Below are positions 13,805 through 34,084 of a stretch of DNA of 64,000 bases, piece after piece. Numbering within the stretch: position 1 is the stretch's first letter; every line of letters begins with the position of its first letter. The stretch comes from a virus. The notes under the pieces were generated by a model. The model saw nothing but the letters and a program-made list of their open reading frames with translations, was not told the DNA's origin and did no database searches. The stretch is taken from IMG/VR virus record IMGVR_UViG_3300005095_000008, positions 1 to 64,000 of that record; one strand, written 5' to 3'. The translations under genes and the position numbers were made by a program.

Positions 13805-14659
13805 ATGAATTATGATCTATTAGCAGCATTAGAAGAGAAGAATATTAATTCTACTGCGTATGTAATTGCAATGGAAGAAGGTATATTTGATACAATTACT
13901 AGCGGTATTTTGAATACAGTACAGAATACTTCTAAATTGATTAGCAGGAAACGTTCAGTTTTAGTAGACCTACTCTATAGTGTAGGAACACTTTCTGAAC
14001 CAAAAGAGATTAAAAAATTCTTACATAAATCAAATAAGATTATTGACACTGTTCCATATATGGATGTAGCGGATGTATTGGTACCAAATTTCGTTGGTTT
14101 ACAAACTGATTTGAAGACACTTACAAAACTTGTAGAAAACTATTCTGTTGTTGTAGACAAGAAAGCATTTAAAGCACTTGACCATATTGATACAGTAATC
14201 TCTAATTTTATTGGTGACGAACAAACAAGAACATCGTTTAAACAAGACAAAGAAATCACGCTCCTAGATGATGAGTTTAATAAACCATTTAAAAAAGAGT
14301 TACAGGCTATGTTTGATCCTAAAGATAAATCAGAGACTGTGAAACTTTCTAAACTATTTAAGAGTAATAGTGATTTAAAAGATACGTTAACAATGTTGGT
14401 GAAGATCGATAATAGCATTAACGATAAAGACCTACTGAAGTTAAACAAACAAGTAGAAAAGATCAAAAAGAAAAGCGATATATTGTTGAAACTACTAGAG
14501 AGTGGGGAAGTAAAAGCATCTAAAGACGCATTGAACAATCTTGTAAAGTCTCTAGATACAACAGCAAACTTCTTGACAAATCTTTCTAATCTGTGGTATA
14601 CCTATTCAACGATTATGAACTTGGCACTAAAAGTAAAAGAGATTTACGAAACAGCATAG
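13805..14659 (+). CDS. Putative internal virion protein with AMEE processing motif
   Basis: A 284-residue, mostly helical, Lys-rich protein without recognised domain. Its N-terminus carries VIAMEEG (residues 20-26). A matching motif occurs in the capsid protein (VAMES, 119-123) and near the start of the 410-residue protein at 43514-44746. The shared motif suggests cleavage by a common prohead protease, which would make this an internal head protein. Only the motif is visible; cleavage is inferred. Start at 13805 follows ATAAAGG. Confidence 0.6.
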   Translation: MNYDLLAALEEKNINSTAYVIAMEEGIFDTITSGILNTVQNTSKLISRKRSVLVDLLYSVGTLSEPKEIKKFLHKSNKIIDTVPYMDVADVLVPNFVGLQTDLKTLTKLVENYSVVVDKKAFKALDHIDTVISNFIGDEQTRTSFKQDKEITLLDDEFNKPFKKELQAMFDPKDKSETVKLSKLFKSNSDLKDTLTMLVKIDNSINDKDLLKLNKQVEKIKKKSDILLKLLESGEVKASKDALNNLVKSLDTTANFLTNLSNLWYTYSTIMNLALKVKEIYETA

Positions 14660-14687: not shown

Positions 14688-16055
14688 CTATTTGACTTTT
14701 AGTGGTATCTTATTCGCATTCAGATTACAGTAAATCATAGTTGCATTATCTGTCTCTACAATAACAGCAGTCTCTAGTAATACACCTGATTTAATCTCTA
14801 TGCGTAAAAAGACTTTAGGGTTTTTTGTTTCTAATCTCTTTAGAAAGTTTCTAGATGGTGTGTCTGTTCCTACAAAGATGTTAAACTTGAACTCACCTTT
14901 TAGTGGTTGTTTTACAACATCTTCTTTCTTAACAGAAATCTTAATCTTTTGTTTATCAGCGAGATCTGGATTGATAACTGTTTTCGTACCTGTTTGATAA
15001 AAGTGTTCTGTTAAATCAAGATAGTATGCTTTTTGTGTGTCTTGCTTATTTTGTTTTAGTAGTGTTTGTAAATCTGCACAATGTTGTGTCGCATAGATAG
15101 CTAGTCCTACAGGTTTTACTTCATAAGCAATGAGTTCTCCTAAAATAGAAGAGAGTTCTACTCTATCGTGTTTGGTTTCAATCGTATAGATATCTTCACC
15201 ATAGACTCCATAAATAGACACGACTTCTTTATTGTACATATTATCTAAATTAATAACAGAGACAACATTTTTATCACCGAGTGCTTTTCTGAATTGTCTC
15301 TTGAGTGTTTCTATTTCTTCTAATGGATAGCTAAACTTAATAGAGACAAACGCAGCGTATGATGTACGCAATCCAATTGGATCATCTTTTTTATAGTTTG
15401 CAAGGCAAGCAACAGTAGCATCTGTATCTGTCGTATTGAAAATAAGATATCTGAAATCTAACATGGTATCTTTTGTCTTTGCAGGCGTCCAATAATATTT
15501 TACATCAGATCGTTTATAGAATAATGTGCGTCCTGTCTTTAGACCAACAATTGTTCCGATATTGGCTCTCTGTAATCCAGCATTGATGTCGTAACTATAT
15601 ACACGTCTAAATGAGATTTGTTTTCGTTCTTCCATAGATATTAATTTCTTATACTGATTATCAGAGACATCAAAAGATAAACGTAACTCTTTGGAATCAT
15701 CTTTTAAGAGTTTAAACATTTTACCATCCATTGCTAATAGATGCACTTTGTCGAATTTAAAACGTTTAATGTATCTACTAATTGATGTAAGAATTCTAAC
15801 AAATAACTCATCTTTACCGCAGTTATATGTTTTATAGAAATCAAAAAAGAAACTAGGCACTACCTCTTTATGTTTAATTTTTTTAACATCTATCTTATTA
15901 ATATAACCAACATTAGATACTGTGGTATTTGTCGGTTTCTTTGCACTCTTTTTACCAATGCTATCTTTTTCGAAAAGATATCCATGTCCGCCAATGATAA
16001 ATGTTTGGTCTTCTTTCATCTTGATGTCGATATATACTACTAATGATTGTGACAT
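14688..16055 (-). CDS. Hypothetical protein, possible RNase H-like fold
   Basis: A 455-residue protein. It opens with a hydrophobic strand ending in acidic residues (VVYIDIK) followed by a Gly-rich turn. A second such strand is VHLLAMDGK near residues 104-112. This pattern is reminiscent of RNase H-like nucleotidyl-hydrolase folds, but I cannot identify a complete catalytic set, so no activity is claimed. There is a basic Lys-rich stretch at residues 35-65. It is a single-gene leftward unit with a terminator at its end and a divergent partner at 16150. Confidence 0.65.
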   Translation of the reverse strand: MSQSLVVYIDIKMKEDQTFIIGGHGYLFEKDSIGKKSAKKPTNTTVSNVGYINKIDVKKIKHKEVVPSFFFDFYKTYNCGKDELFVRILTSISRYIKRFKFDKVHLLAMDGKMFKLLKDDSKELRLSFDVSDNQYKKLISMEERKQISFRRVYSYDINAGLQRANIGTIVGLKTGRTLFYKRSDVKYYWTPAKTKDTMLDFRYLIFNTTDTDATVACLANYKKDDPIGLRTSYAAFVSIKFSYPLEEIETLKRQFRKALGDKNVVSVINLDNMYNKEVVSIYGVYGEDIYTIETKHDRVELSSILGELIAYEVKPVGLAIYATQHCADLQTLLKQNKQDTQKAYYLDLTEHFYQTGTKTVINPDLADKQKIKISVKKEDVVKQPLKGEFKFNIFVGTDTPSRNFLKRLETKNPKVFLRIEIKSGVLLETAVIVETDNATMIYCNLNANKIPLKVK

Positions 16056-16149: not shown

Positions 16150-17670
16150 ATGAGTTATATTAGACCAAATATTGGAGATACAGGTGTATTTACATTAGCG
16201 ACTCCATATGATAGTATCGTATCAGATATTGAAGAGTATACAGTAGAATCTATTAGAGGTCTACAAGAGATGGTAGACGCTGGTGAAAACCCATTGCAAG
16301 TTGTATACTTAGACTTAGGTAGAACTGAAGAGGATATGAAAGACGATATTAACAATGAGATTAATATTGTAGTACTTGTAAACTCTGCTGGACAATACGC
16401 ATATATCCCAGAAGATGCGTTTATTAAAGCACCAGACGTGACTGGCATACAGTACCAAGAGAAAGCGATTGGTATTAGTTTAGGATTGCTAAAAGCAGAC
16501 ATAGATTTGGAATCGTTAAAAGACGATATTGCTGCCTATGTCAAGGACACGTTAGGTATTGTACCAGAAATTAAAGAAGTTGAAACATCTGCTATCGTCC
16601 GTCTTAATAAAAATACAAGAGAGAGTCTAGAACTTGAAAGAGAAGCATTACGTAAGAATAATCCATCTTTCAGAGCACGTTTCTTGATGTGTGAAGCAGA
16701 AAAAGAAAAACTCGCATCAGAGGTAAACAGATTAGGTTGCAGTCTCTCTAATTATCTTGCAGATGATATGAAAGCTATTTATGATAAGAACAAATATGCG
16801 ATCAATATTGAAGGAACGCTTGTAGATAACGCACAAACCATTGTGAGTGATTTAGATATTGGTAAATCTAAAGGTGTTGAATTTGATATTAATAGATACC
16901 TTGTGTTCGATAGAACAGATTCTAAATTAAAATTAATCTATACAAACACATACTCTGTTACTGTGCTAAAAGAAGTAGCATTTTCTAGTGATGTTGATTT
17001 AAGCTATACAGACGTTAATATTTATAAAACTATTAATGGTGTTATTGTTTATTTTTGGTACGCTGATAGACTAGTAACTGTTGGCTTTAACAATAATCTA
17101 GAAGAGACGATACAAATCAATGCTAGCGATCTTATAAATGAAAATATGTCTACTCCATCGCAAGTAAGAAATGACACAGTTGTGTTTCCGTACTTTGATG
17201 GTTCTGCTATCATGATTCGTTATACGACGCAGCGTATTGATGGCACACTTAGTATTGCAAACAAACAAGTATCTGGAGGTACTGTTAGCGGAGTATTAGC
17301 AAACACTGTAGGTCAATTAGCAGAACTAAAAAGCAATTCATTTGTAATATTTAAAAATGATGGCTGTAGACTTACGAAAGATGACTCTGATGAGTACACC
17401 TATATTGATAACAATGTCCGTCTAGAGACAACACCTAACTATAGATACTTTATGTCATTGGTTCCAGATCGATATGTCGTAACAAGAGAACGCACTGATG
17501 GAATAGAAGTTTTTATTGTTGATGAAACAAATACTATCGTATCTACAATTATACAAGTTCCGTATCAATATGATAAAACAGTTATCATAAACACACACGA
17601 TAAGTCTCTATTATTTATCAATCGAGAAAATACAGAAGAGCAATATCTATCGATTAAAAAAATAATTTAA
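16150..17670 (+). CDS. Putative virion structural protein
   Basis: A 506-residue protein in two parts. Residues 1-220 are acidic and helical, starting MSYIRPNIGDTGVFTLATPYD. Residues 230-506 are a run of short beta strands, such as YLVFDRTDSKLKLIYTN and RYVVTRERTDGIEVFIVD, that look like a beta-propeller or repeated beta sheet. This architecture is common in tail or baseplate components, but no family is certain. AAAAGGATACGT precedes the start. It ends at a bidirectional terminator. Confidence 0.7.
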   Translation: MSYIRPNIGDTGVFTLATPYDSIVSDIEEYTVESIRGLQEMVDAGENPLQVVYLDLGRTEEDMKDDINNEINIVVLVNSAGQYAYIPEDAFIKAPDVTGIQYQEKAIGISLGLLKADIDLESLKDDIAAYVKDTLGIVPEIKEVETSAIVRLNKNTRESLELEREALRKNNPSFRARFLMCEAEKEKLASEVNRLGCSLSNYLADDMKAIYDKNKYAINIEGTLVDNAQTIVSDLDIGKSKGVEFDINRYLVFDRTDSKLKLIYTNTYSVTVLKEVAFSSDVDLSYTDVNIYKTINGVIVYFWYADRLVTVGFNNNLEETIQINASDLINENMSTPSQVRNDTVVFPYFDGSAIMIRYTTQRIDGTLSIANKQVSGGTVSGVLANTVGQLAELKSNSFVIFKNDGCRLTKDDSDEYTYIDNNVRLETTPNYRYFMSLVPDRYVVTRERTDGIEVFIVDETNTIVSTIIQVPYQYDKTVIINTHDKSLLFINRENTEEQYLSIKKII

Positions 17671-17700: not shown

Positions 17701-18258
17701 TTACTTTTTCATAAAATCTAAATCAATCGCTACTGCTTTACAGAAACGTATTGCTTGTGCTAAGAATGCTGTTTTTGATTTGTTACCTATTACATGCTGA
17801 TATTTCACTAACATATTCACTTTAGAGACATGTTCAGATTTAATCTCTACATCTTTACCTTCTGTTTTTAAGTTAAATGTAACTGCTTTATTATCGATTG
17901 TGAGCATTAACGCATAATCTCTTGCTGTAACTGTAAATGTATCTTTTGATACTTTCTCTTTTAAGCTACAATGTTTAAATGTATCATATTCAAAAAAGAC
18001 ACCAGAATCTTTCTGATTCAAAACTACATTTAGTAATAAGATATGTAACTTATCTAACATGTTATCTTCGTCAAATAGCAATGGTTTAAATGTGTAATCA
18101 TCACATAGACCTACATTGCTGTTTACATATTTATAGAAGTCATGTAATTCATTTACTTTATAACGTTCTTCTTTATGTTCTTTTGGTATAAATACATCCA
18201 CACCATTACAATTCTTAACAATAAATTCATCTTTAACAATTTGAAACCTAACTCGCAT
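17701..18258 (-). CDS. Hypothetical protein
   Basis: A 185-residue protein of alternating beta strands and basic residues. I use the ATG at 18258 (RVRFQIVKDEF), which has AAAAGGATAGAC before it, instead of a GTG 27 nt upstream that overlaps a promoter-like box. No recognised family or catalytic motif. The strand pattern could suit a small DNA-binding or clamp-like fold, but this is not supported by any signature. Confidence 0.65.
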   Translation of the reverse strand: MRVRFQIVKDEFIVKNCNGVDVFIPKEHKEERYKVNELHDFYKYVNSNVGLCDDYTFKPLLFDEDNMLDKLHILLLNVVLNQKDSGVFFEYDTFKHCSLKEKVSKDTFTVTARDYALMLTIDNKAVTFNLKTEGKDVEIKSEHVSKVNMLVKYQHVIGNKSKTAFLAQAIRFCKAVAIDLDFMKK

Positions 18259-18277
18259 GTCTATCCTTTTATAAGTT

Positions 18278-18285
18278 TTATTCAC
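18278..18285 (-). promoter_or_regulatory. GTGAATAA box
   Basis: GTGAATAA on the minus strand, 19 nt before the chosen start at 18258. It matches the TTGAATAA family in spacing, and also argues against the upstream GTG start, which it contains. Confidence 0.35.
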
Positions 18286-18318
18286 ACTATAGGTATATTA
18301 AAAAATAAAAAAAGCAGC

Positions 18319-18342
18319 GTAGTGTACCGTATGGTACACTAC
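18319..18342 (-). terminator. GTAT-capped terminator
   Basis: Perfect 10-bp stem (left arm GTAGTGTACC) with a GTAT loop, directly after the leftward gene ending at 18345. A run of A residues to its left gives a U-run on the minus-strand transcript. Confidence 0.8.
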
Positions 18343-18344
18343 AG

Positions 18345-18734
18345 CTATTTTAGCATATTTTCTATTTCTTTAGTAAGTTCTACTAGTTCTTCCATACCAG
18401 AATCCGGAAGGAATTTACTAGCGTGTTTCATGATAACTTGACTAATTTTCGTAGCTATTGGCGAGTAAGTCTTGATAAAGTCTTCCTCGATACCTATGAT
18501 TGCGTCACTCAAGTCATCGCCTTCTAGTCCAACTGTATTTTCTGTTAGACCGTTAAAGATGTCTTTAAGGACCTCATGCGTTGCTTTTGCTTCTGCAATA
18601 AGTACGTCTACCGCTTTTTGTTCAGACTCATCGTCGATGACGGTTTTTATAGCACCAACCATCTCGATGTTCTCCTCAAGCGCTTTTAGATTTTCTTCTA
18701 AATCAGCTTGAACGTCTTCCAGTACTACTGTCAT
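18345..18734 (-). CDS. Hypothetical acidic helical protein
   Basis: A 129-residue strongly acidic protein, predicted almost entirely helical with heptad-like spacing in its first half. It follows AAAGGATAAAT and lies 24 nt after the gene at 18759-19439, so it is probably the last gene of the leftward unit starting at 20491. Function unknown; coiled-coil assembly or a scaffold-type role is possible. Confidence 0.65.
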   Translation of the reverse strand: MTVVLEDVQADLEENLKALEENIEMVGAIKTVIDDESEQKAVDVLIAEAKATHEVLKDIFNGLTENTVGLEGDDLSDAIIGIEEDFIKTYSPIATKISQVIMKHASKFLPDSGMEELVELTKEIENMLK

Positions 18735-18758: not shown

Positions 18759-19439
18759 TTATATACACACAACTGTATCGTTCTTTACATGGCCTATGTT
18801 TCTAATTCCATAGTTCTTGTCAAGTGTAACTAAGTGTAATGTGCTTCCAATAATGTCCTTTGCATGTTTTGATAGAATACTAGCGATATTTTGTGTTTCA
18901 TGCGCTTCTATCATGCCGTTTTGTTTTTGCACATACCGCAAATCTTTATCTAACTCGCTGTCTTTAGAGACTACGATTGTGACAGGCTCTACAAACCAGT
19001 ATATACCCATATCTTTACCACGTACTGGTTCAACATCTGCGATATCTGTATTGTCGAAATAACTGACTCCAAACTCTATTGTTTTGATAAATCGTTTAAA
19101 ATCATCATCGACAGAACGCTTTTGTTTTGTTAGCGCAATAAGATCTGTATAGTCGTTAAGAATACTATCTACCTTTACACTTCTACTAATGTTATTGAAA
19201 ACACGTGTTAGATGTTCATCAACCACATTGAGTGCTGCGTCATACTTACCAGTTGCAATAAAACTTTTTAGTTTTTGTTTAAACTCTTCAGGATTCATAT
19301 TGACGAGTATAGGTGTCACGACACTACCATACGAGAGTGTTTCCATGCTTGTATCTTCATTTAGCGTATTTACCACAGCAGCCATGAGAGTATTGTTTAA
19401 ACTCTCGCATCCATATCTTAGTTCTCTTAAGACTCTCAT
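18759..19439 (-). CDS. Hypothetical protein coupled to the Q/Y-rich protein
   Basis: A 226-residue soluble protein without recognised motif. Its ATG shares a base with the stop of the Q/Y-rich protein gene (TAATG), so the two are translationally coupled and may act together. The C-terminal half is alpha/beta (IYWFVEPVTIVVSKD). The upstream protein's C-terminal half contains a similar beta-strand set, but I do not claim homology. Confidence 0.65.
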   Translation of the reverse strand: MRVLRELRYGCESLNNTLMAAVVNTLNEDTSMETLSYGSVVTPILVNMNPEEFKQKLKSFIATGKYDAALNVVDEHLTRVFNNISRSVKVDSILNDYTDLIALTKQKRSVDDDFKRFIKTIEFGVSYFDNTDIADVEPVRGKDMGIYWFVEPVTIVVSKDSELDKDLRYVQKQNGMIEAHETQNIASILSKHAKDIIGSTLHLVTLDKNYGIRNIGHVKNDTVVCI

Positions 19440-20491
19440 TATAGCACTCCTTTTGCTCTATATACCACACCGTGTTTTGTTCTAAAAACCTCACCGTCTA
19501 CAATAAGTATTTGCAGTCCACCATAATACTTTAGATGGCGACGAATACGGTGTGTTAGAGAATCTTTAATAATGTCCGTCTCTTCACTAGAGACATTCTC
19601 TAATTCGACATATACTTCTGGTCGTGTACCATACATGAAAATTGTAGGTAGGTCAAAGGTGTACGCATAGAGAATGATGCGACCTTCTTTTACCTCTTCT
19701 TCTTCGATAGAGTCAAACAGTATCTTCATAATCTCTTTAAAACGAGCAAGTGATTCTGAATAGGTGTCTTTTGCAGACTTGATGTATTCATGTGCAGCTA
19801 CATAATCTTCTTTAAAGTCGTCAATTTCAATAGCAAAAACAGAATTGAACAAGTCTGTAAAGAGTTTACGGAACTCATCTGGTAAATCAGAATCTAAGGC
19901 AGATTCGTCTATAACACTACCTAGACCATTCACTAACGCTTTAAAACTGTTTATGGCTAGTTTCTGTGTCGTATAGAGGGTAGTAAACACATTGACTCTA
20001 TTACATTGTGCATGTGAATCTTGGTAAAGCTTATCTTTTACTATAAAATAGTTGATGTAGTCTTGGAAACCACCTTTCTCCATTTGCACGTACGGACCGT
20101 CACTTTTTGGAAAAAGCGCATCGTCTGTGATGACTCCATCCATATATTTTACCATTGTGTTATTAACACATTGTTCGGTTGGTTCTTCATAGGTTGGTGT
20201 TTGTTCTACGTATGTTTGCGTAGACTGTTGATATGTTTGTTGTTGGTATGTTTGTTGTGTCGGCTGTGTTTGTACGTCAGCGTATCTACCAGACACATAG
20301 ATAGATTGCCGTTGCTGTTGACCATATGGTTGAGCATATGTTTGAGGTTGTTGGTATGGTTGATCCATAGCTTGACCTGCAAACTGTTGTTGATCATATG
20401 GTTGTTGAGGATATTGTTGCTGTTGAGGTGCGACTAATCCTGTATTGTGTTGCACTGACTGTTGTTGTTGATTAAATGCTTTATACTGCAT
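19439..20491 (-). CDS. Protein with Q/Y-rich prion-like N-terminus
   Basis: A 350-residue protein in two parts. Residues 1 to about 108 are low complexity, with about 37 Gln plus many Tyr, Pro and Thr in short QQQ, TYQQQ and PYQQP units. Residues 110-350 form an ordinary globular domain with no recognised family, ending in a beta-rich segment (GGLQILIVDGEVFRTKHG). Such Q/Y-rich tails in other proteins drive self-association or condensate formation; here that is inference. A CATATTATTA box lies 80 nt upstream. It is coupled to the following gene. Confidence 0.7.
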   Translation of the reverse strand: MQYKAFNQQQQSVQHNTGLVAPQQQQYPQQPYDQQQFAGQAMDQPYQQPQTYAQPYGQQQRQSIYVSGRYADVQTQPTQQTYQQQTYQQSTQTYVEQTPTYEEPTEQCVNNTMVKYMDGVITDDALFPKSDGPYVQMEKGGFQDYINYFIVKDKLYQDSHAQCNRVNVFTTLYTTQKLAINSFKALVNGLGSVIDESALDSDLPDEFRKLFTDLFNSVFAIEIDDFKEDYVAAHEYIKSAKDTYSESLARFKEIMKILFDSIEEEEVKEGRIILYAYTFDLPTIFMYGTRPEVYVELENVSSEETDIIKDSLTHRIRRHLKYYGGLQILIVDGEVFRTKHGVVYRAKGVL

Positions 20492-20548: not shown

Positions 20549-20568
20549 TTTGACTCCGAAGAGTCAAA
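20549..20568 (-). terminator. Hairpin with UUCG loop
   Basis: An 8-bp stem (TTTGACTC/GAGTCAAA). On the minus strand the loop is TTCG closed by C-G, the very stable UUCG tetraloop. It lies between the gene ending at 20657 and that starting at 20491. It may terminate the upstream unit or be part of the leader. Confidence 0.5.
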
Positions 20569-20571
20569 TTA

Positions 20572-20579
20572 ATAATATG
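20572..20579 (-). promoter_or_regulatory. CATATTAT box
   Basis: CATATTATTA on the minus strand, 80 nt before the start at 20491. It is related to the CATATTATAT box upstream of other leftward accessory genes. Its position upstream of the UUCG hairpin leaves its role uncertain. Confidence 0.3.
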
Positions 20580-20656
20580 TATCTAAATAAATTTAGAGTA
20601 CTTATGCGTATTTATCGAGTATGTCTTTGTTACAATCTTTACAATAAATTTACACA

Positions 20657-21970
20657 TTACTCTTCCTTTAATAAATTTATAAATGTGCCATTAATATCGT
20701 TCAATAAGTCTTGATATGTTCTAAATCTAATGCTTTGGTATTTTACATCAAGATTTGTCACGCCATTTACACTAATAACTACATCATCTTTATCTTTAAA
20801 CATATTCACGCGATGTCGTTTAAACAACATTTTAAATTCTGCAAATTCATCTGCCAATAGTTTAAACGACGGGTATATGTTTATATTATGAAGTTTTATT
20901 TTAAATTCATTAACTGTTTTTATAGGTTTTAATAACATACAAACATCACTTACTTTTGTTGACGTGACTACATATTTATATTTTTCTTTTTTAAGTACTG
21001 TTTTAATAATCAAAAGATATTTTAAAATAATTATATCTAACTTATATGTCTGTTTTTGCAGAGTAATTTCCATTTTAGATAATTCTTTAATTAATTTAAT
21101 ATAATATTTAACATCAATATCTAAAATGTCTATCGCATGTTTTGCGACGCCTGTTTTATAAATTAACCTCATATCTGAATTAATATCTGCAAATTTGTTA
21201 TTAATAATTAATGATTTTGTGGTTATTATGTTAAATTCTATAACGTTTGTCGTTATAATAGCCTCGACGCAATGATATTCTTCATAATCCAATTCTGAAA
21301 ACTCTAATGTATCAATATTAAGAATAATATTTAACAAATCGACATTATTGTTTATTTTAACGTCATAATTATTTAACATAATACAATCAAATGTTTTACA
21401 AATTGCTTTATCTCTAAGACCGTGTAAAATCACGTGCGTTGCTTGAACATGACGAATTTCTGTATCTTTTAATTTTGGCACAATAAAATTACCTAACTCG
21501 TAAATATCGTTGTAACCTATAGCTTCATAGATTGCTCTAAATAAATCGTTTTCTTTTATAAGCATCTTTTTTGATATGTTTTGTAATAGAATTATATCTA
21601 ACAGATCTATTTCGTGGTTCTGTGTTTGTAATAATTTTGTATTCGTTAGATCATAATAAGTATGTTCTATATCAGCAGATATACGTTCTAGTCCACTAAA
21701 AATAATGACAAATGAGTTGTTAAAAATAACACCGTCTGCTTCAAAAATCTTCAATAATTCTTCTGTTTTTATAAAAACAATATTATCGCCAGTAACTGTT
21801 ACGTTATCTTTTCTAAAAAACTTTTTTATAGGTTCTGATACTAGAGACATATGGATAGTCTCTGTGCCAACTTCCATACCATCTACAAGTATAAAAGTTA
21901 TATTTCCTTCAAAATTAAACTCTTTAAACAAAAGTGTTTCTTCAACGCCTACCGCCTTAACTATACACAT
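20657..21970 (-). CDS. Hypothetical protein, paralogue A of the MoxR-VWA module
   Basis: A 437-residue protein rich in Ile, Asn and Lys, more AT-rich in coding than its neighbours. It shares three collinear patches with the 429-residue protein at 24225-25514: GDNIVFIKTEELL (compare GNNIIITTEESL), IGYNDIYELGNFIVP (compare IGMTCEKVIGDYILP) and YPSFKLL...VNM (compare FPSLKIL...VNM). The two therefore look like distant paralogues flanking the VWA and MoxR genes. No catalytic motif is visible. The annotated ATG is 12 nt from the GGAG site; an ATT codon at 21976 has better spacing and would restore an N-terminus like that of the paralogue. Confidence 0.65.
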   Translation of the reverse strand: MCIVKAVGVEETLLFKEFNFEGNITFILVDGMEVGTETIHMSLVSEPIKKFFRKDNVTVTGDNIVFIKTEELLKIFEADGVIFNNSFVIIFSGLERISADIEHTYYDLTNTKLLQTQNHEIDLLDIILLQNISKKMLIKENDLFRAIYEAIGYNDIYELGNFIVPKLKDTEIRHVQATHVILHGLRDKAICKTFDCIMLNNYDVKINNNVDLLNIILNIDTLEFSELDYEEYHCVEAIITTNVIEFNIITTKSLIINNKFADINSDMRLIYKTGVAKHAIDILDIDVKYYIKLIKELSKMEITLQKQTYKLDIIILKYLLIIKTVLKKEKYKYVVTSTKVSDVCMLLKPIKTVNEFKIKLHNINIYPSFKLLADEFAEFKMLFKRHRVNMFKDKDDVVISVNGVTNLDVKYQSIRFRTYQDLLNDINGTFINLLKEE

Positions 21971-22005
21971 TCCAATAGTTTACTCCTTTTTAAATAAAAA
22001 GACAT

Positions 22006-22033
22006 ACGCTAGGTGGGTTAACCCACCTAGCGT
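22006..22033 (-). terminator. 28-bp perfect palindrome after VWA gene
   Basis: Left arm ACGCTAGGTGGGTT followed by its exact complement, touching the stop codon of the VWA gene. It has no unpaired bases at its centre. It probably terminates the MoxR-VWA transcript and separates it from paralogue A. Confidence 0.7.
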
Positions 22034-23280
22034 CATCTTCGTGAACGGTATTTTCTAAGCACCGCATCGATGAACTCTCGTTCATCTCGCAATACAATAG
22101 AACTACCGAAATGTTTGTTCAACTGTTCTCGTACAGTTGTTACCTCATGTCTTTCTGTGCCGTGGAAGTACATACCAAATAAGTTAGACTTTTGTAGTCG
22201 TTTGATATGTTTCTCATTAGGATAGCCATCTACCAACATACCATCTGTATATGCGATCACAATATCATGCTTCGCAATATCGTTGATGTTTCTATCGATA
22301 GTTACTTGGAAACCTTCAGAACCAGAGTTTGGTCTGATTGTATCTAAGAGCTTTGGTTCTACAGGCAATGATAGTTTGTAGTAACCAACGCCTGTTGTGA
22401 GATACACAGAGTACTCTGGTAGAGCTCTACCTTTCTTTTTACGTTTTAGAAGGTTATTATTCATAGCGTGCAACATGACCATACCACGAGTGAATGGATA
22501 TCCACTCATAGAACCACTCAAGTCGAAGATGAAGCACACAGATGTAGCATCTCTTTTAGAAGCTTTCTTCTTCCATAACTTCTTCGCATCGTCTGAAGCA
22601 AGTGTTTTGTAGTTTAGTTTTGCACTTGCCTTTGAACTTACCAACTCTTTAAGAGACTCTTTGTCGAGGAATCTCTCTAGAGACTTTGACATATAAGAAA
22701 TCTCTTTAGACATGGTCTTTGAGATTACATTATAAGACGATGGATCTCCATTAAACGCATCATCAATGAGTCTTGGATTAGTTTTACTCACTGTATCTAC
22801 AGTGTAATAGTAACTACCTACGCCGCTATGGAATTCATTAGCGGTATCGTAAGCTTGTGTGCTACCAAACTGTGTTGGTGCGTCGCTATCGTCACTATCG
22901 CTGAAGGAGACACTGTAAGAGATATTAACAAACCATGAGTCATCAACGTCTTTAGATTTATGTTTACGCTTTGTTTTTACGACGACGTATGTTGCATCGT
23001 TTACTACTACTTCAAGAACGATTTCTCTTTCATCATCAAGTACATCTTCTTTACGGTCTCTTACTTTCCAGTCAAGACCAGCATGTGTGATGTGTTTCTC
23101 AAGCGCGTCAAAATCTTTAAACCACTTTGATGCTTTTGCTGCTTCAACAATTTTCTTCGCAAGACGTTTCTCTCCGTATAGTTCCTCTGGAAACCCAATA
23201 AAGAGCTCGCCTCTAGCGTCTCTCATAAATTGAATAATTTCCATACCGCCTCTATTTTTACAAATATTTACCTTTACCAT
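22033..23280 (-). CDS. VWA-domain protein (CoxE-like), partner of MoxR ATPase
   Basis: A 415-residue protein. Residues 1-240 are a basic, mostly helical region. Residues 245-415 are a von Willebrand factor A domain with an intact metal-ion site: DLSGS (D253, S255, S257) after a hydrophobic strand and YTDG (T345, D346). MoxR ATPases and VWA proteins are a well-known pair in which the VWA protein acts as adaptor for a chaperone or cofactor-insertion job. The gene follows the MoxR gene by 12 nt. The target in this phage is unknown. Start supported by AAAAGGAGAAAAC. Confidence 0.85.
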   Translation of the reverse strand: MVKVNICKNRGGMEIIQFMRDARGELFIGFPEELYGEKRLAKKIVEAAKASKWFKDFDALEKHITHAGLDWKVRDRKEDVLDDEREIVLEVVVNDATYVVVKTKRKHKSKDVDDSWFVNISYSVSFSDSDDSDAPTQFGSTQAYDTANEFHSGVGSYYYTVDTVSKTNPRLIDDAFNGDPSSYNVISKTMSKEISYMSKSLERFLDKESLKELVSSKASAKLNYKTLASDDAKKLWKKKASKRDATSVCFIFDLSGSMSGYPFTRGMVMLHAMNNNLLKRKKKGRALPEYSVYLTTGVGYYKLSLPVEPKLLDTIRPNSGSEGFQVTIDRNINDIAKHDIVIAYTDGMLVDGYPNEKHIKRLQKSNLFGMYFHGTERHEVTTVREQLNKHFGSSIVLRDEREFIDAVLRKYRSRR

Positions 23281-23292
23281 GTTTTCTCCTTT

Positions 23293-24147
23293 TTATAGCA
23301 AGTTTAGTTTTTCTTCATTTGTTAGAACATCTTCTTTAAACAGTTTAAAGTTTTCTCGTCCATCTTCAGACAGCTCATCGCCAAATTCAGACCGCACAAG
23401 ACGGCGTTCATAATCATCTAATAGATCAACGAAGACTTTAATCTTATCTTCGTCCTCCAAGTCAATAACGTCACCATCACCGATACGCTTCTCAAGTTGA
23501 GCAAGTTCATTAATAATTCTATTTGACATAGGATACATCGTCTTGTTATTCATGTTTTCTGCATACTTCTCTAAGACTCTGTTGAGTAGTGGTGTCAACT
23601 CTACTTTAAACTCTCCATCGTCTTTAAAGCTTATTGTAACAAAACGATCGACAAATGCTCTATCACCAAGGTCTGCAGAGTAATCATTGCCGATATTCAT
23701 TGTCGCAATGAACGTGAGTTTGTCAGCATCAATAACGATAGACTCTGTAATGGTATTACCCATGTCGTCTTTAACCGCTTTGTTTGTAGTCAACGTAAGT
23801 TTTCCTAAATTATCTGGCGTTAGTGTTGGAACCAGATAGTCCTTGAGTTCCTTTGGTACTCTACCGATTTCATCAAAAATCACACAGACGTCTTCACCTT
23901 CTCTAGCGCGAAGGAATGCTTGCGTTAATGGACCTGCTGCGTATTCCATGCCACCTACTTCGTTACGTAGCCACATACCAATCGTGTATGTTTCATCGGT
24001 ACTACTTGTACCGTTAATAACAAAGATATTGTTCTCTTTGTAGTTCTCTCTAGCCCATTCATATGTAGTATATGTCTTACCAATACCAGCGTCTCCAGTA
24101 ATGATTACTGGTTTTAAACCTTTATATAGATTCAACTTTTTTTTCAT
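23293..24147 (-). CDS. MoxR-family AAA+ ATPase
   Basis: A 284-residue AAA+ protein of the MoxR/AAA_5 type. Walker A is GDAGIGKT (18-25), Walker B is VCVIFDEIGRV (D92, E93), sensor 1 is FIATMN (N151), and arginine-finger-type residues occur in DRAFVDRF (R163, R168). These enzymes form hexamers that remodel client proteins with a VWA partner. The VWA gene lies immediately downstream, supporting a functional pair. It has its own leader with a CATATTATAT box and a conserved GAGGTGATACAA sequence, which is also in the DHH gene leader. MoxR-VWA pairs are usual in cellular genomes, so its presence in a phage is notable. Confidence 0.9.
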   Translation of the reverse strand: MKKKLNLYKGLKPVIITGDAGIGKTYTTYEWARENYKENNIFVINGTSSTDETYTIGMWLRNEVGGMEYAAGPLTQAFLRAREGEDVCVIFDEIGRVPKELKDYLVPTLTPDNLGKLTLTTNKAVKDDMGNTITESIVIDADKLTFIATMNIGNDYSADLGDRAFVDRFVTISFKDDGEFKVELTPLLNRVLEKYAENMNNKTMYPMSNRIINELAQLEKRIGDGDVIDLEDEDKIKVFVDLLDDYERRLVRSEFGDELSEDGRENFKLFKEDVLTNEEKLNLL

Positions 24148-24184
24148 GCTATTTTCCTTTTTAACTTTAAACTATTTAGATACT

Positions 24185-24196
24185 TTGTATCACCTC
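24185..24196 (-). promoter_or_regulatory. Conserved leader sequence GAGGTGATACAA
   Basis: On the minus strand GAGGTGATACAA lies 38-49 nt before the MoxR start. The same 12 bases occur in the leader of the DHH gene (31578-31589). GAGGTGAT equals the extended complement of the 16S rRNA 3' end, so it could bind ribosomes ahead of the true start, but no start codon follows closely here. Confidence 0.4.
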
Positions 24197-24206
24197 ATAA
24201 CTATGA

Positions 24207-24216
24207 ATATAATATG
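24207..24216 (-). promoter_or_regulatory. CATATTATAT box upstream of MoxR gene
   Basis: CATATTATAT on the minus strand, 60 nt before the MoxR start. Identical decamers lie before the genes starting at 25514 and 34032, and near-identical ones before the genes at 31535 and 39964. Likely a promoter element; inferred from recurrence. Confidence 0.5.
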
Positions 24217-24224
24217 TACTCATA

Positions 24225-25514
24225 TTATTTTTCAATTCTATATATGTAATTAGCAATACAATTGACTAATGAACAATATAAACCGTAAACTGCATATGTT
24301 CTAGGTATTTGCCAGTTTGTATTCGCATTCTTAATGCTGTACCTGGAATCACGTATATTCATTAGTATTGTTTTGTCATCATTACACTCCGTCATATTTA
24401 CAGAATACTCTTTAAATACCTCATTCGTTTCTGGTATAAATTTGTTTAATATTTTTAACGAAGGAAATATATCATTGTCCTTTTCTTCAATCTCTAATGG
24501 ACCATCAGCGATATCTGTATAAGTTAAACTACACTGTTCTGATCTAGGATATGCATCAAAGTTAAATAAGTATTTATTAGAATCATCTTTTCGCGTTTCT
24601 AAGAATAGGAACGCTTTTGATAATTTATAATAGATGTCTGTGTTACTTAAGTGTTCTAATGTCTTTAGGTCATTCGTATTGTGATTCTTTACAAACTCCA
24701 ATAACTTTTCAGTCCTTACTGTTAAAGTATTCAATAATTCTATAAAATAAAGCGTGTGTGTTGTTAACTTATCATTATAGATTAACGTCATAACGATTAA
24801 CTCTGTATATTTATGATAAGATTTTATACCTATGTAACATTCGTTATTATTGCTACGTACCTCACTTTCTGAATCATGAAATAATACATAATTAAATATA
24901 CTAAAGTTATCACTAAGTATCGTATTAATATATGCTATAATCTCTATCTTTTCTTCTATGTTTATGATTCTATCATCATAGATTTTAAAAGAGTTCTTAA
25001 ATGCAATACCTAAATACTTTCTATCTATTGGTAGTATATAGTCACCAATCACTTTCTCGCAAGTCATACCTATTATTCTGTATAATATTTTAAAATAATC
25101 TAATGCGTCACGCATACTAGAAAAATCATATTTCTCAATATCAAAATTACTGAACGTCTTTTTATCGCCCAACATATCATAAAACACTGCCTTATTCTCT
25201 ATAAAAGATCCTGATGCACCCATAGCAGCACCGCTAATGCTTCTTGAGTATAATAAAGAATTTTTCATTGTGATTTTAAGAGATTCTAGATTTATTAAGC
25301 TTTCTTCTGTTGTTATGATAATATTATTACCAATAAATTTATTAGATTCTAAAATATTTCGAACACGTGCGATGTGTCTCGTTATGCTACTTAAGGAACC
25401 TTCTTTTGACATTAGTATTACAATAGTCAATTCTGCGTCTTTAAGAGTGCTTTCTACGACTGTGTTAGTAACTGTACCTCTATCCTTAACAATTACAAGA
25501 TTTACCTTACCCAT
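24225..25514 (-). CDS. Hypothetical protein, paralogue B of the MoxR-VWA module
   Basis: A 429-residue protein starting MGKVNLVIVKDRGT after AAAAGGAGATAAA. It shares scattered but collinear similarity with the 437-residue protein beyond the VWA gene (see that entry), most clearly FPSLKIL...EVFKEYSVNM near residues 350-375. It has no recognised catalytic motif, signal or membrane span. As first gene of the leftward module, with its own CATATTATAT box, it is likely expressed with MoxR. It could be a client or adaptor of the ATPase, but that is inference. Confidence 0.65.
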   Translation of the reverse strand: MGKVNLVIVKDRGTVTNTVVESTLKDAELTIVILMSKEGSLSSITRHIARVRNILESNKFIGNNIIITTEESLINLESLKITMKNSLLYSRSISGAAMGASGSFIENKAVFYDMLGDKKTFSNFDIEKYDFSSMRDALDYFKILYRIIGMTCEKVIGDYILPIDRKYLGIAFKNSFKIYDDRIINIEEKIEIIAYINTILSDNFSIFNYVLFHDSESEVRSNNNECYIGIKSYHKYTELIVMTLIYNDKLTTHTLYFIELLNTLTVRTEKLLEFVKNHNTNDLKTLEHLSNTDIYYKLSKAFLFLETRKDDSNKYLFNFDAYPRSEQCSLTYTDIADGPLEIEEKDNDIFPSLKILNKFIPETNEVFKEYSVNMTECNDDKTILMNIRDSRYSIKNANTNWQIPRTYAVYGLYCSLVNCIANYIYRIEK

Positions 25515-25546
25515 TTTATCTCCTTTTAAACTATTTTAGGCTATAA

Positions 25547-25556
25547 ATATAATATG
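25547..25556 (-). promoter_or_regulatory. CATATTATAT box
   Basis: CATATTATAT on the minus strand, 33 nt before the start at 25514 and just after the capsid-gene terminator, so a new transcript probably begins here. Confidence 0.5.
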
Positions 25557-25586
25557 TCTATAAACATTATTAGAAATAAAAATAGT

Positions 25587-25614
25587 CTACAGACTAGCAT
25601 ATGCTAGTCTGTAG
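25587..25614 (-). terminator. ATAT-capped terminator after capsid gene
   Basis: Perfect 12-bp stem (left arm CTACAGACTAGC) with an ATAT loop, 11 nt beyond the capsid gene end. Confidence 0.8.
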
Positions 25615-25624: not shown

Positions 25625-27736
25625 TTATACGGTATGTACGTTTTGTGGGATTTTTTTGGTAACAGTTTCGAAACCTGTTACGTCAAATTCCGCCAAGATT
25701 GGAAGAAGGTTAACGAACTCAAACGCTGGTTGGTTATAGAGTGCGTTGATTGAAGTTCCATTAATAGAACGTTTTACTTCAACAGTTGGAGTTGGAACGA
25801 ATGCTCTGAATCCAAAGTTAAGTACGTTCAACGCTTTAGAGCCAGTAGTTGGCATTACCATGATTTTGTTAATGAATTGTTTACTACCAGTAGCAACAAC
25901 TTTAACATTTACATTTCCACCAAGATCAAGTGGTTGACCATCACCAGTCAATGCTGCTTTGATTTTTCTATCAGTAGCAATGATAATGGTTGGTTTAGCA
26001 CCAAGATTCATGTTGGTATTTTCGAATGCGTCAAGATATCCTGAACCGTCCATCATTTCATTTACAGTCTGTGCGATTACAGCACTAATAGCACCTTTGA
26101 TGTTAGCGGTGATATCTTTAGAGTTTGTACTGTCTACCACAGTAGCAAGATCAATCTCTTTATTTGTGTAATATGGATTAACAAGATCTTTAGCAGCACC
26201 TGCTAGTTCATTTGTTACCAATTCAATACCATTTTCAGTAGCGTTTCTTAGGAATCCTGCATACTTAAGAAGTTTGTTAATTCCAAGAACAGTACTCATT
26301 GCTCTCGCTTGGTTTCCGAAAGACTTGATTTTGTTTGCGTCATTATCAACATCTGCAGTATGGATTTGTGGCTTCAATACAGAGATTGGAGTTCTATATC
26401 CAACAGAGTAGATAGTGTTTACAGTTTCAGCAGAGAGGATATATCCAGTCTGTCTAAGGTTACTATTTGTTGCATATGCATCGACTTCATATCCGATGAA
26501 TTCCATTGCATCGATAATACCTTTAACAGTAGTGAACTTAGCATCAGTTTGTGGCACTACATTTCCAGCAGCATCACGAAGTTCTAGCAACTCGAATTTA
26601 CCTTTAGAAACAGATAGGTCTCCGATTTCTGTATTTCCAGAACCATAGAGTACACCACGTACTACGATGGTATGACCAGGCATATTAAGGTTATCAAGTA
26701 CTGCTGATGCAGAACCATCAACTTGTTTAGTGTTATCAACAGAGATAACGAGACTGTCAGATACAAAGTTAAGAGCAATGTCTTTGCTGTGTCCAGATGC
26801 AGTTGGTACCCATCTAGCAGATGTATAACCAGATACGTTGATAACGTGAGTAGAAGTATCAGTACCATCAGTGAGTGTATAGTATACATTCTCAAGGATT
26901 ACTGTGTCATCCATTGCGTCAGTGTTATCTCTAACACCTTGGCTAAGTTGCGCAGCTGTTTGAGAAATTCCCATAAGTGGTGCATCAACATCAGGTTTAA
27001 TTGGTGCAGTTCTAATAGTTTCGCCTGTAACTGTAGTATCATATGCAAGAGTATCTACGAGTACTTCTGCGTTAGTAGCGTTTAGTACAGGAACAAGTCT
27101 TGTTTTCTCACCAGCAAGAATTGAATCAGCATCAATAAGTGCTTTAACAAGTGATACAGAGTTTCTCTTAAGTCTATCTGCAGAAGCATTACTTCTAAGG
27201 TATTGACCTTCAATTTTCTCTACAGTTGCCGCAACAGCACATCCAGACACACCTGGCTTAAGTACTACAGTTGGATAGATAGTTTCGGTAAATTCATCTT
27301 GTCTTGCCATAACCATGTTAACAGCAAAAGAGTATGGTGTGTTGCTAGATACGACTTGACCGTCGAAAGATTCCATTGCTACGAGTTGGTCGCTATAAAC
27401 ATCAGACTCACCAAACGCACCTGCTTGTACTACAACTTGCTTACCAGATTCTACTGCTGGCATAACACGACGTGCTCCAATAGCAGCTGTGGTGTCTTGG
27501 TCAAGTAGTGCCCCGTATTGAGCGGCTTGGATTTGTGCGTCTTCAAGTCCTGGTACCTCGTCTAGTGCGTCACGCACAATTTCAGATACTGTATTTGTTG
27601 CCTCTTCGACGAATGCTCCGTCTACAGAAGAGTCCTCAAGTCCTAGTGCTGCTTTTGCAACAGCTTCTGGTGCAGCAATTTCTGCAGCCTGTAGACCTTT
27701 TTTAACTTCGCCTACGATTTGTCCTAGTGATTTCAT
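25625..27736 (-). CDS. Major capsid protein with N-terminal propeptide
   Basis: A 703-residue protein, the size of jumbo-phage capsid proteins. The first 122 residues are acidic and Ala-rich, typical of a delta-type propeptide. They end at VAMES (119-123), resembling AMEE motifs in two other proteins here, so cleavage after E122 is likely. The rest is alternating Val/Thr-rich beta and helical segments. The coding DNA is clearly richer in GC and Ala/Val codons than its neighbours, as expected for a very highly expressed gene. The end, FVNLLPILAEFDVTGFET, resembles the final strand of HK97-fold capsids. No scaffold or protease gene is in the window. Assignment rests on length, propeptide and composition. 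Confidence 0.75.
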   Translation of the reverse strand: MKSLGQIVGEVKKGLQAAEIAAPEAVAKAALGLEDSSVDGAFVEEATNTVSEIVRDALDEVPGLEDAQIQAAQYGALLDQDTTAAIGARRVMPAVESGKQVVVQAGAFGESDVYSDQLVAMESFDGQVVSSNTPYSFAVNMVMARQDEFTETIYPTVVLKPGVSGCAVAATVEKIEGQYLRSNASADRLKRNSVSLVKALIDADSILAGEKTRLVPVLNATNAEVLVDTLAYDTTVTGETIRTAPIKPDVDAPLMGISQTAAQLSQGVRDNTDAMDDTVILENVYYTLTDGTDTSTHVINVSGYTSARWVPTASGHSKDIALNFVSDSLVISVDNTKQVDGSASAVLDNLNMPGHTIVVRGVLYGSGNTEIGDLSVSKGKFELLELRDAAGNVVPQTDAKFTTVKGIIDAMEFIGYEVDAYATNSNLRQTGYILSAETVNTIYSVGYRTPISVLKPQIHTADVDNDANKIKSFGNQARAMSTVLGINKLLKYAGFLRNATENGIELVTNELAGAAKDLVNPYYTNKEIDLATVVDSTNSKDITANIKGAISAVIAQTVNEMMDGSGYLDAFENTNMNLGAKPTIIIATDRKIKAALTGDGQPLDLGGNVNVKVVATGSKQFINKIMVMPTTGSKALNVLNFGFRAFVPTPTVEVKRSINGTSINALYNQPAFEFVNLLPILAEFDVTGFETVTKKIPQNVHTV

Positions 27737-28471: not shown

Positions 28472-29977
28472 ATGAAATCATTAGACGCACTATTAATAGC
28501 AATTCGACTACTATATCTAGAAAAGACAATCGAAAAAGAGAATGGGTCTAATAGTAAAGAGTTGGTACAAAATATACTAGACTTACTCGATAATGAAAAG
28601 AGAGCGCTCAATGGTTCTAATAAAGAGATGATACAGAACCTTAAAGAGTATGTGCGTACATTCGTAGATATGTTTGACAAAACAGAATATGAACCAAATC
28701 TTATTAAACAGAGTCTACTACTAATTCTAGAAAACAAAGACTTAATAGAAGAACTCATTGCAGATATTACTAGAGAGTCTACCTTAGAAGAGAAACAACA
28801 AAGAATACTTCGATTAAGAAGTCTACTCTCTAGTTACTATGGTGAAGATAAACTTAAGAAGTTATTGAATAAACTCACACATGACATTAACAATAAAAGA
28901 AACAAGATTACTGATATTGAGAAGTTTAGATTAGAAGCACTCTCGATGTTAGAAACGATTAAGTTGGGTAATGTAGAGAAAGACCCTAACATTGTAACAG
29001 AGATTGACTTGAGTGATGTAGAATCTAGTTCACAAATCATTCATGAGTTACAAGATGAAGCGAGTAGTGGTTTACTATTGAAAACTGGATTCCAAGCAAT
29101 GAACAGAGTCTTAGATGGCGGTATCCGTAGAGGAGAGTTAATTACGATTACATCTCAACAGCATAAGTATAAATCTGGATTGGCTAGAAGTCTATTCATG
29201 CAGACAATGATTCATAACGTACCGAAACTGAAAGATGAAAATAAGAAACCATTAATGATTTTCATTAGTTTTGAAGATAACGCTAGATTGGTATTGAAGT
29301 TTATGTTTGAATACTTGATGAGTTCAGAAGGTAAAACAACGAAAATTATGGACGTGAGTTCTGATGATGCAGCAGCTTATATTAAAGGCGCATTAGAAGC
29401 CAATGGTTGGAATGTAAAGTTATTAGTTGTGAATCCATCTGGTTGGGGATACAAGGATATCTTTAATACTGTAGAGAAATACGAGTCTAAAGGATTTGAA
29501 GTCTTTGGATTATGTTTGGATTACTTATCATTAGTACCTAAGATTGGCTGTATCAATAATGGTGCGACTGGTAGTGATACGAGAGACTTGTTTAGACGCG
29601 TAGGAAACTATGGTAGAGCAAGAGATATGTATGTTATCACACCACATCAGAGTAGTAGCGGTGTGAAACTATTATTAAGAAATGGTGTAACAGATGAGGA
29701 CTTAGTCAAAGAGATTTATGGTAAAGGATACTTTGCAGATAGTAGTCAACTAGACCAAGAACATGATGTGGGTATTTTAGGACACATTGCAAAAATAGAT
29801 GGAGAGTCATATCTCACATTAGCAGTAGACAAACATAGAGGGTTTGTTATTAATCAAGAGTACGCATTCTTTAGTTATAAGTTTCCAAAGAATGAGATGC
29901 CCATTCCTCCAGATATTAATGGGAAGGATATGAGTATTAAAGACTTAAGTGTTAGTGGAGACGATGATTTATTTTAA
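28472..29977 (+). CDS. dnaB: Replicative DnaB-like DNA helicase (T4 gp41-like)
   Basis: A 501-residue protein. The N-terminal 190 residues are helical. The C-terminal RecA-type core has the DnaB layout: TGFQAMNRVLDGGIRRGELITI (from residue 205), a P-loop position TSQQHKYKSG (227-236), ISFEDN with the catalytic-type Glu (E268), LCLDYLSL as Walker B (D350) and a TPHQSSS segment. DnaB-like helicases unwind DNA at the replication fork. The P-loop is unusual: the usual Gly before Lys-Ser is Tyr, and no Gly opens the loop. It is divergent from the capsid unit and ends at a bidirectional terminator. No primase gene is visible here. Confidence 0.8.
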   Translation: MKSLDALLIAIRLLYLEKTIEKENGSNSKELVQNILDLLDNEKRALNGSNKEMIQNLKEYVRTFVDMFDKTEYEPNLIKQSLLLILENKDLIEELIADITRESTLEEKQQRILRLRSLLSSYYGEDKLKKLLNKLTHDINNKRNKITDIEKFRLEALSMLETIKLGNVEKDPNIVTEIDLSDVESSSQIIHELQDEASSGLLLKTGFQAMNRVLDGGIRRGELITITSQQHKYKSGLARSLFMQTMIHNVPKLKDENKKPLMIFISFEDNARLVLKFMFEYLMSSEGKTTKIMDVSSDDAAAYIKGALEANGWNVKLLVVNPSGWGYKDIFNTVEKYESKGFEVFGLCLDYLSLVPKIGCINNGATGSDTRDLFRRVGNYGRARDMYVITPHQSSSGVKLLLRNGVTDEDLVKEIYGKGYFADSSQLDQEHDVGILGHIAKIDGESYLTLAVDKHRGFVINQEYAFFSYKFPKNEMPIPPDINGKDMSIKDLSVSGDDDLF

Positions 29978-30218: not shown

Positions 30219-30598
30219 AACAACTCCTCTTGTAAACTCTTATGCCTGCTATACAGTTCTTGCAACATTATCTTTATATTTTTTATAGCATTCGCTTTTT
30301 CTATCTCTGTATAAGTATCGTCTGTAACGATATGTTCTATTCGTTTATTTAGTTTATCAATATCTTGACATACGCTGTTTATTTGTTCTCTAATAGAGTC
30401 TTGTTCTATCTTCATTTGCATGGCTTTGCTAATAAAGATTATTGCGGTTACAATTGTGTTTACGATTGGAACGAATACAAATAAAACATAAGTAACCTTT
30501 TCTGGTATTGATAATCCTACTTTAACCTCGTTTCTAAACGCATAGGCATTAACACCAATGCTCAAGATGTATATTAACATTAATAGACTAGTTACCAT
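30215..30598 (-). CDS. Membrane protein with C-terminal coiled coil
   Basis: A 127-residue protein with two hydrophobic segments (about 1-20 and 35-57) and then a helical, heptad-like cytoplasmic or periplasmic tail (60-127). It overlaps the DHH gene by 11 nt and the next small gene by 4 nt, so all three are co-translated. The DHH enzyme may act near the membrane through this protein, but that is inferred from gene order. Confidence 0.65.
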   Translation of the reverse strand: MVTSLLMLIYILSIGVNAYAFRNEVKVGLSIPEKVTYVLFVFVPIVNTIVTAIIFISKAMQMKIEQDSIREQINSVCQDIDKLNKRIEHIVTDDTYTEIEKANAIKNIKIMLQELYSRHKSLQEELL

Positions 30599-31535
30599 TA
30601 CTTACCTCCTCTGGTGAAGGAATTATACAGTCTAAAACAAGACGCTCTAGATTTCCTTTAACAGGAATAGAGAATCCTGCAGCAAGTTTATGACCACCGC
30701 CTTTATAGACTTTAGCAATATCACTCACGTCAACATCTCCGACACCTCTTAAAGAGATTACGATGAATGGTTCACCATTCTCATCTTCAGAGATAAACCA
30801 CTGGCCGCTTATACCAGACGGGTGTTCTCTAGCAATCTTATTACCAACCTCACTGATAAACTCATGATTGTTAATCATGCCAATAACAGTACCGTTAACA
30901 TTAACATCTTTGACTTTATCAATATTCCCAATCTTATCGACTAGCTCTTCTTTATACTCCACACGAACGGTAGTAACGTCATTGATGAATTGTTTGACGT
31001 CATGAATATCAAATTCATCTAGGTCGAATAGGTTATTTGGTCTAACAAGTTTTTTAAAGCCTTCTGTAAAAGCATGCGTATCTTGTAAGTCATGTAACCA
31101 CAAGTCTCTATCCTTAATGTATGTAAGACACGCAGGAACGTTTTTGTCGCCACTCAAGACTTTATATGTTAACGTAGCTCCAGATTCATTCACATCGAAC
31201 CACACATTGTCAAGTCCATTAAGTTCTTTTTGTGCAGTAATGTGGTGGTCAATAACGACTACTTTTTTAGCTACTTTATAAATAGCTTCCATTTCGTCTC
31301 GTTTAAGAGAGAAATCTGTAAACAGTACATACTTATCTCTAAACGCATCTACAGTTAATTCAAACGCACCATACTGCGCAAAGTAAACAGAATCATCTAA
31401 CATACCAGGACTAAGGCCTATTACCTCTGCCAATGCCCAGACAGATCCCATTCCGTCTGAACAATTCTTATGCGTGACAATAATCAAATTATCACTCATC
31501 AATGCTGTTTTAATTTCTCTAGCTAAATTTGTCAT
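30588..31535 (-). CDS. DHH/DHHA1-family phosphoesterase
   Basis: A 315-residue protein with the full DHH set. Motif I is THKNCSDG (H22, D27), motif II DFS (D74), motif III VIDHH (D96-H98) and motif IV DRDLW near 142. The C-terminal DHHA1 substrate-binding motif is GGGHKLAAG (279-287). Family members hydrolyse small phosphodiesters such as oligoribonucleotides, pAp or cyclic dinucleotides, using manganese. In a phage it might recycle nucleotides or destroy a host signalling nucleotide; neither can be decided from sequence. It starts an overlapping three-gene unit with a membrane protein and carries the same leader motifs as the MoxR gene. Confidence 0.88.
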   Translation of the reverse strand: MTNLAREIKTALMSDNLIIVTHKNCSDGMGSVWALAEVIGLSPGMLDDSVYFAQYGAFELTVDAFRDKYVLFTDFSLKRDEMEAIYKVAKKVVVIDHHITAQKELNGLDNVWFDVNESGATLTYKVLSGDKNVPACLTYIKDRDLWLHDLQDTHAFTEGFKKLVRPNNLFDLDEFDIHDVKQFINDVTTVRVEYKEELVDKIGNIDKVKDVNVNGTVIGMINNHEFISEVGNKIAREHPSGISGQWFISEDENGEPFIVISLRGVGDVDVSDIAKVYKGGGHKLAAGFSIPVKGNLERLVLDCIIPSPEEVSNGN

Positions 31536-31589: not shown

Positions 31590-31599
31590 TAGACTAAAT

Positions 31600-34076: not shown

Positions 34077-34084
34077 TAAATAAA

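Follow-up and report, generated by a model that had tools for sequence, protein, structure and literature searches.

In a phiKZ-type jumbo phage, the major capsid gene is immediately followed by a block of four minus-strand genes, in which a CobS-like AAA+ ATPase gene and a VWA gene are flanked on both sides by the genes of two probable distant paralogues, A and D. We read the block as an early, accessory protein-remodelling cassette with A and D as possible partners of the pair, an interpretation for and against which we hold about equal confidence. The evidence that bears on it includes the family assignments of the ATPase and the VWA protein, the early-type promoter motifs before two of the genes, and the absence of the whole block from the closest relative that we found.

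Genome setting and layout of the block

The block was found in an 87,030-base IMG/VR viral record, a fragment of a phiKZ-type jumbo phage, of which a stretch of 64,000 nucleotides was analysed (hereafter, the window). The assignment to the phiKZ type was based on the major capsid protein (25625-27736), which matched Pfam PF25620 (1.3e-113) and is ~24-30% identical to the capsid proteins of isolated relatives. A divergent DnaB (28472-29977) matched PF20307 (6.8e-86), and the gene order DnaB, small gene, capsid is as in phiKZ relatives. The four open reading frames given in the preliminary description were confirmed on the minus strand at 20657-25514 (Table 1), with an intergenic gap of 12 nt between the ATPase and the VWA genes.

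Table 1. Genes, motifs and regulatory elements of the four-gene block (positions in the window).
Feature	Position	Strand	Basis or remark
A, 429 aa	24225..25514	-	ORF; no known family; similarity to D
CobS-like (AAA_5) AAA+ ATPase, 284 aa	23293..24147	-	Pfam AAA_5, phrog_249
VWA protein, 415 aa	22033..23280	-	profile comparison and motifs
D, 437 aa	20657..21970	-	ORF; no known family; similarity to A
Walker A GDAGIGKT, ATPase residues 18-25	24073..24096	-	sequence motif
MIDAS DLSGS, VWA residues 253-257	22510..22524	-	sequence motif
Early-type motif ACATATTAT-N6-AG	25541..25557	-	first base 43 nt from A start codon
Early-type motif ACATATTAT-N6-AG	24201..24217	-	first base 70 nt from ATPase start codon
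Early-type motif of next gene (19439-20491), far block edge	20565..20580	-	
Intrinsic terminator, after capsid gene, before A	25587..25614	-	12-bp stem
Intrinsic terminator, between VWA gene and D	22006..22033	-	12-bp stem

The ATPase and the VWA protein

The preliminary description had named the ATPase a MoxR protein with all key motifs visible, and the AAA+ part of this claim stood. Together with the Walker A motif, the protein carries a Walker B motif (VCVIFDE), an invariant sensor-like TxNIG and a DRAxxxRF in the arginine-finger region, and it matched Pfam AAA_5 (PF07728) with 36.4 bits against a cut-off of 22 (E=6.4e-9). A canonical MoxR identity was ruled out: AAA_3 (PF07726), the MoxR model, had no match in a whole-contig search whose controls matched in 13 out of 14 genomes, and the protein was AAA_5 and CobS-like instead. 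Its best PHROG was phrog_249 (1.4e-8), which is annotated "porphyrin biosynthesis" and represents the phage CobS group, its nearest matches were phage CobS-type ATPases with 26-33% identity, and the PADLOC matches were at the P-loop level only.

The VWA partner described together with the ATPase was borne out. In addition to the MIDAS motif (DLSGS at residue 253), we found TDG at residue 345, and residues 241-403 aligned to a profile built from 61 phage VWA domains with a score of 34.8, while 20 shuffles scored at most 19.7. Against the same profile, A scored 11.0 and D 21.7. The VWA domain is C-terminal and follows an N-terminal region of ~240 aa, of no known kind and without HExxH. The protein had no match to any Pfam model, neither HExxH nor another peptidase motif, and no CobT family match in PHROG or NCBIfam. 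No homologues were recovered from viral contigs, phages or genome contigs, and the codon pattern of the MIDAS motif had 0 matches in viral contigs.

Related pairs in cells and viruses

In cells, RavA-ViaA, CbbQO, NorQD and CoxDE are pairs of an AAA+ ATPase and a VWA protein that remodel particular protein complexes dedicated to each (cf. PMC3893208, PMC4660213, PMC3471820). The block differs from them in having no family-level match to these pairs in NCBIfam.

In viruses, starting from the ATPase and two of its phage relatives as queries, we retrieved 510 viral loci and kept 80 with 26-32% identity; in several of these, a VWA gene comes next after the ATPase gene. A 484-kb uncultured phage (L059) encodes a 336-aa ATPase and then a 632-aa VWA protein. 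Loci L062, L076 and L136 have the ATPase, then a HELHH protein of 410-470 aa and then a separate VWA gene (303-319 aa), an arrangement that is a split CobT, and the record of L123 ends after its ATPase and HELHH genes.

The block had been put forward as a possibly undescribed system. Viral AAA+/VWA pairs are already described (PMC7824862, PMC8651126, PMC4124505); what sets this block apart as a new arrangement is that it has no peptidase domain, that paralogues flank the pair, that early-type promoters are present and that the phage is of the phiKZ type. The cobST genes are found in many tailed viruses, and phage and haloviral cobST share with our block the order of an AAA_5 ATPase gene and then a VWA gene, the MIDAS motif and the tailed-virus setting (PMC8651126). 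Here, however, the CobS-type ATPase is a distant one, the VWA protein does not have the N-terminal HExxH domain seen in a CobT-type partner, and A and D flank the pair in a phiKZ-type phage. Group 2.2 jumbo phages likewise have an ATPase/VWA pair, a MoxR-vWA with a peptidase domain for which a virion role was proposed (PMC7824862), but they are another phage group and their VWA is fused to a metallopeptidase, whereas our block has no HExxH and has early-type promoters. ATV p618/p892 are a further viral case of a VWA protein paired with a MoxR-type ATPase, p618 being a virion component linked to tail development; that virus differs in being an archaeal spindle virus (PMC4124505).

Proteins A and D

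The flanking proteins had been described as unrecognised and about 430 residues long, and this was upheld: A and D had no above-threshold match in Pfam, PHROG, NCBIfam or PADLOC, the match of A to the Pfam family DUF7756 (E=0.005) lying below the cut-off. No homologues of A or D were found in the viral contigs and phages searched, nor of A in genome contigs. The cobST-type loci that we fetched contained no A or D counterpart in a profile search of all their ORFs (best E 0.26). Structure predictions for A (with D as the only aligned row) and for the VWA protein had pLDDT of 30 and 35 and were unusable.

The paralogy of A and D, at first judged by eye, turned out to be above chance and probable. 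The Smith-Waterman local score between them was 140, against a mean of 55-57 (sd ~9, maximum 93-101) for 1000 shuffles that kept the composition at windows of 10, 20, 50 or the whole length (Gumbel p ~5e-6). As controls, the reversed sequence scored 60 and 150 composition-matched real proteins scored at most 84. Composition-corrected BLAST gave E=2e-4 across 92 residues, and the similarity was strongest C-terminally, between A 314-405 and D 330-415. Among the proteins of the contig, none was as near to A or D as these two are to each other. Bias-corrected phmmer fell short of significance (E=0.19), which places this distant relationship close to the limit of what pairwise methods can detect. 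On these comparisons, A and D are probable distant paralogues.

Two other candidate relationships were rejected. Neither A nor D corresponds to the gene of gp122 type usually found next after the capsid gene in relatives of phiKZ (single-sequence hhalign scores of 13-14, probability 0.1). A kinship of A and D with proteins of loci L020-L024 (score ~84) was discarded as a likely coiled-coil-type similarity; those proteins are relatives of the SbcC-like product of 3317-5743.

Promoters and terminators

Seven copies of the motif ACATATTAT-N6-(A)G were counted in the 87 kb, where 0.8 would be expected and none of 60 simulations gave more than 3. All 7 were located 43-89 nt upstream of same-strand start codons. 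Within the window the sites precede 33526-34032, A, the ATPase gene and 19439-20491; in the rest of the contig they precede a 280-aa gene, a gene for an RNA polymerase beta subunit and a phrog_3209 gene. A variant of the motif precedes the DHH phosphoesterase gene (30588-31535). The bare ACATATTAT, taken without the spacing, was not over-represented in the window (5 vs 2.8 expected), and the case for the motif rests on its spacing and position, not on the 9-mer itself.

The early promoters of Bacillus phage AR9 are AAATATATATTAT-6N-G, and the virion-RNA-polymerase promoters of phiKZ-related phages have the same AT-rich design with the start 6 nt downstream (PMC5312081). Our motif resembles these early promoters, to which we assign it by similarity: by sequence, it is an AT-rich element of the phiKZ/AR9 type (...ATATTAT-6N-G) upstream of genes. 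Since the motif stands before A and before the ATPase gene and is missing before the capsid gene, from which A is separated by a terminator, A and the ATPase-VWA genes are likely to be transcribed early. D lacks an early-type motif and is preceded by a terminator, and its regulation may therefore be separate from that of the ATPase/VWA pair. One observation that counts against an early reading of the block is the adjoining capsid gene.

Distribution of the block

The preliminary description had raised conservation of the four-gene order in related phages. The order was not kept: the closest relative found (L009, a 37-kb fragment whose DnaB and capsid proteins are 75% and 63% identical to those of our phage) lacks all four block genes. 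About 137 nt after its capsid gene comes the orthologue of 19439-20491, which bears the same early-type motif directly after the capsid gene. The 353-aa and 226-aa genes of L009 are the orthologues of 19439-20491 and 18759-19439, and the downstream continuation comprises orthologues of 16150-17670, 14688-16055, 13805-14659 and 12266-13723. Two small genes of our phage, at 17701-18734, are also without a match in L009. A profile search of the whole L009 record found no ATPase of this kind.

We also searched 26 phiKZ-like records with a CobS-type ATPase profile, which recovered the window ATPase and both positive controls. None of the 26 had such an ATPase, one of them giving a 40-residue, P-loop-sized match (E=6e-4); most of these records are fragments, so that absence from them is no proof. 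Because the block is missing from L009 and no such ATPase was found in the 26 phiKZ-like records, we consider it accessory. On the simplest reading of its distribution, the lineage of this phage probably acquired the block, which now separates the major capsid gene from the neighbouring early gene.

Discussion

As an early, accessory remodelling cassette, the block would work by analogy with RavA-ViaA, CbbQO, NorQD and CobST. The CobS-like AAA+ ATPase would assemble into a ring and, with the VWA protein as its MIDAS-bearing adaptor, form one remodelling machine: the VWA protein would dock onto the ring and present a client chosen by its unique N-terminal 240 residues, and ATP hydrolysis would thread or distort that client. 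The injected virion RNA polymerase would probably transcribe the A gene and the ATPase/VWA genes early in infection. A and D, as a diverged duplicate pair, would be the likeliest dedicated partners or clients of the ATPase and the VWA protein, a role suggested only by their position, their joint absence from L009 and their duplication. Given the early-type promoters and the accessory distribution, a complex of the host or of the early phage proteins is a more probable client than the virion.

It is also conceivable, though unlikely, that a working AAA+/VWA pair merely stands beside two functionally unrelated orphans that are paralogous to each other. The genes divide two and two in composition: GC is 38-39% in the ATPase and VWA genes vs 26-29% in A and D, and when the 36 window genes were ranked by similarity of codon use to the capsid gene, the VWA gene was 3rd, the ATPase gene 10th, D 33rd and A last. 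Such a split would allow separate histories and mere neighbourhood, and the separate promoter of A and the terminator that precedes D fit with this as well. Chance does less well with paralogues that flank the pair on both sides and with the joint absence of all four genes from L009. The same compositional split may also mean that more of the ATPase and the VWA protein is made than of A and D, or that the two halves differ in history.

Virion maturation was among the functions first proposed for the block. As a virion-assembly chaperone, the pair would mature capsid or tail proteins, with A and D as scaffold-like clients; the position directly after the major capsid gene, the capsid-like codon use of the ATPase and VWA genes and the precedents in group 2.2 jumbo phages (PMC7824862) and ATV (PMC4124505) would all agree with this. 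We consider it distinctly unlikely, because early-type promoters precede A and the ATPase gene, a terminator sets the block off from the capsid gene, and L009 has a capsid protein 63% identical without having the block. The absence from L009, with the ATPase not found in the other phiKZ-like records, indicates that the block is not needed for building such a virion, and the VWA protein lacks the peptidase motif.

A counter-defence or host-takeover complex directed against one host system would be a narrower form of the remodelling cassette that we favour, with A and D as paired binders (e.g. as a heterodimer, or each with its own target). It would fit the accessory distribution, the early-type promoters and the orphan status of proteins for which no relatives were detected. 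Many early phage genes would be expected to share these features, however, and the block offers neither a target nor a match to a known family; we consider this version rather improbable.

A viral cobaltochelatase, in which CobS- and CobT-like subunits recruit the host CobN for cobalamin, is very improbable: the ATPase matches phrog_249 and its relatives belong to cobST-type pairs, but its identity to them is low, the VWA protein has neither the HExxH N-terminal domain of phage CobT nor a CobT family match, the cobST-type loci that we fetched have no counterpart of A or D, and the phage has a class Ia ribonucleotide reductase (NrdA 41129-43486, NrdB 40035-41120), an enzyme that needs no B12, so one usual reason for a B12 role is gone.

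We thus return to the early, accessory remodelling cassette. In its fullest form, the CobS-like AAA+/VWA motor together with A and D would be a four-component early machine that takes apart or remodels a complex of the host, which might be a defence or an assembly for transcription or replication; we put this forward as an unlikely proposal. AAA+/VWA pairs are widespread in tailed viruses, and the candidate purposes for them are vitamin B12, virion assembly or another chaperone role. A stripped-down pair that occurs with a B12-independent ribonucleotide reductase, early-type promoters and an accessory distribution is a test case among these ideas, and the A/D paralogues, if they are partners of the pair, would indicate its client.

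Early-type promoters and associated genes

A putative early-type promoter class, ACATATTAT-N6-(A)G, assigned by similarity to AR9/phiKZ virion-RNA-polymerase early promoters, precedes about eight genes of the window phage, including an RNA polymerase beta-subunit gene. The element GAGGTGATACAA downstream of the motif was common to the ATPase and DHH phosphoesterase sites. One gene with such a promoter, encoding a P/Q-rich N-terminus, is fast-evolving, since its identity to the counterpart in L009, the closest relative found, was only 27%, although DnaB was 75% identical for the same phage pair. The L009 counterpart, which has a promoter motif of this type as well, directly follows the capsid gene.

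Split CobT-type and endonuclease-like genes

In three other viral loci, CobT-type proteins are split: one gene encodes the HELHH peptidase-like part and another the VWA part, and a small gene separates the two. The window gene 37749-38270 has a listed TTG start, its frame continues upstream to about 38370, and an HNH-like stretch (VCQLCGSRQNRHAHHL) is encoded upstream of that start; the gene probably extends beyond its listed length and codes for a homing endonuclease. In 36255-37121, the thymidylate synthase PHROG match was limited to the C-terminal 110 residues and part of the PHROG; these residues are possibly an endonuclease-associated domain.

Features in the window, in L007 (further sites of the same phage) and in other viral loci
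Feature	Location	Strand	Basis
ACATATTAT-N6-(A)G promoter	window 34061-34077	minus	sequence motif
ACATATTAT-N6-(A)G promoter	window 31594-31610	minus	sequence motif
ACATATTAT-N6-(A)G promoter	window 20565-20580	minus	sequence motif
ACATATTAT-N6-(A)G promoters	L007:2847, 11490, 16370	minus	sequence motif
P/Q-rich gene	window 19439-20491		
Counterpart of P/Q-rich gene	L009:5909-6970		
Split CobT-type region	L062:2451-5012		
Split CobT-type region	L076:937-3515		
Split CobT-type region	L136:6862-9897
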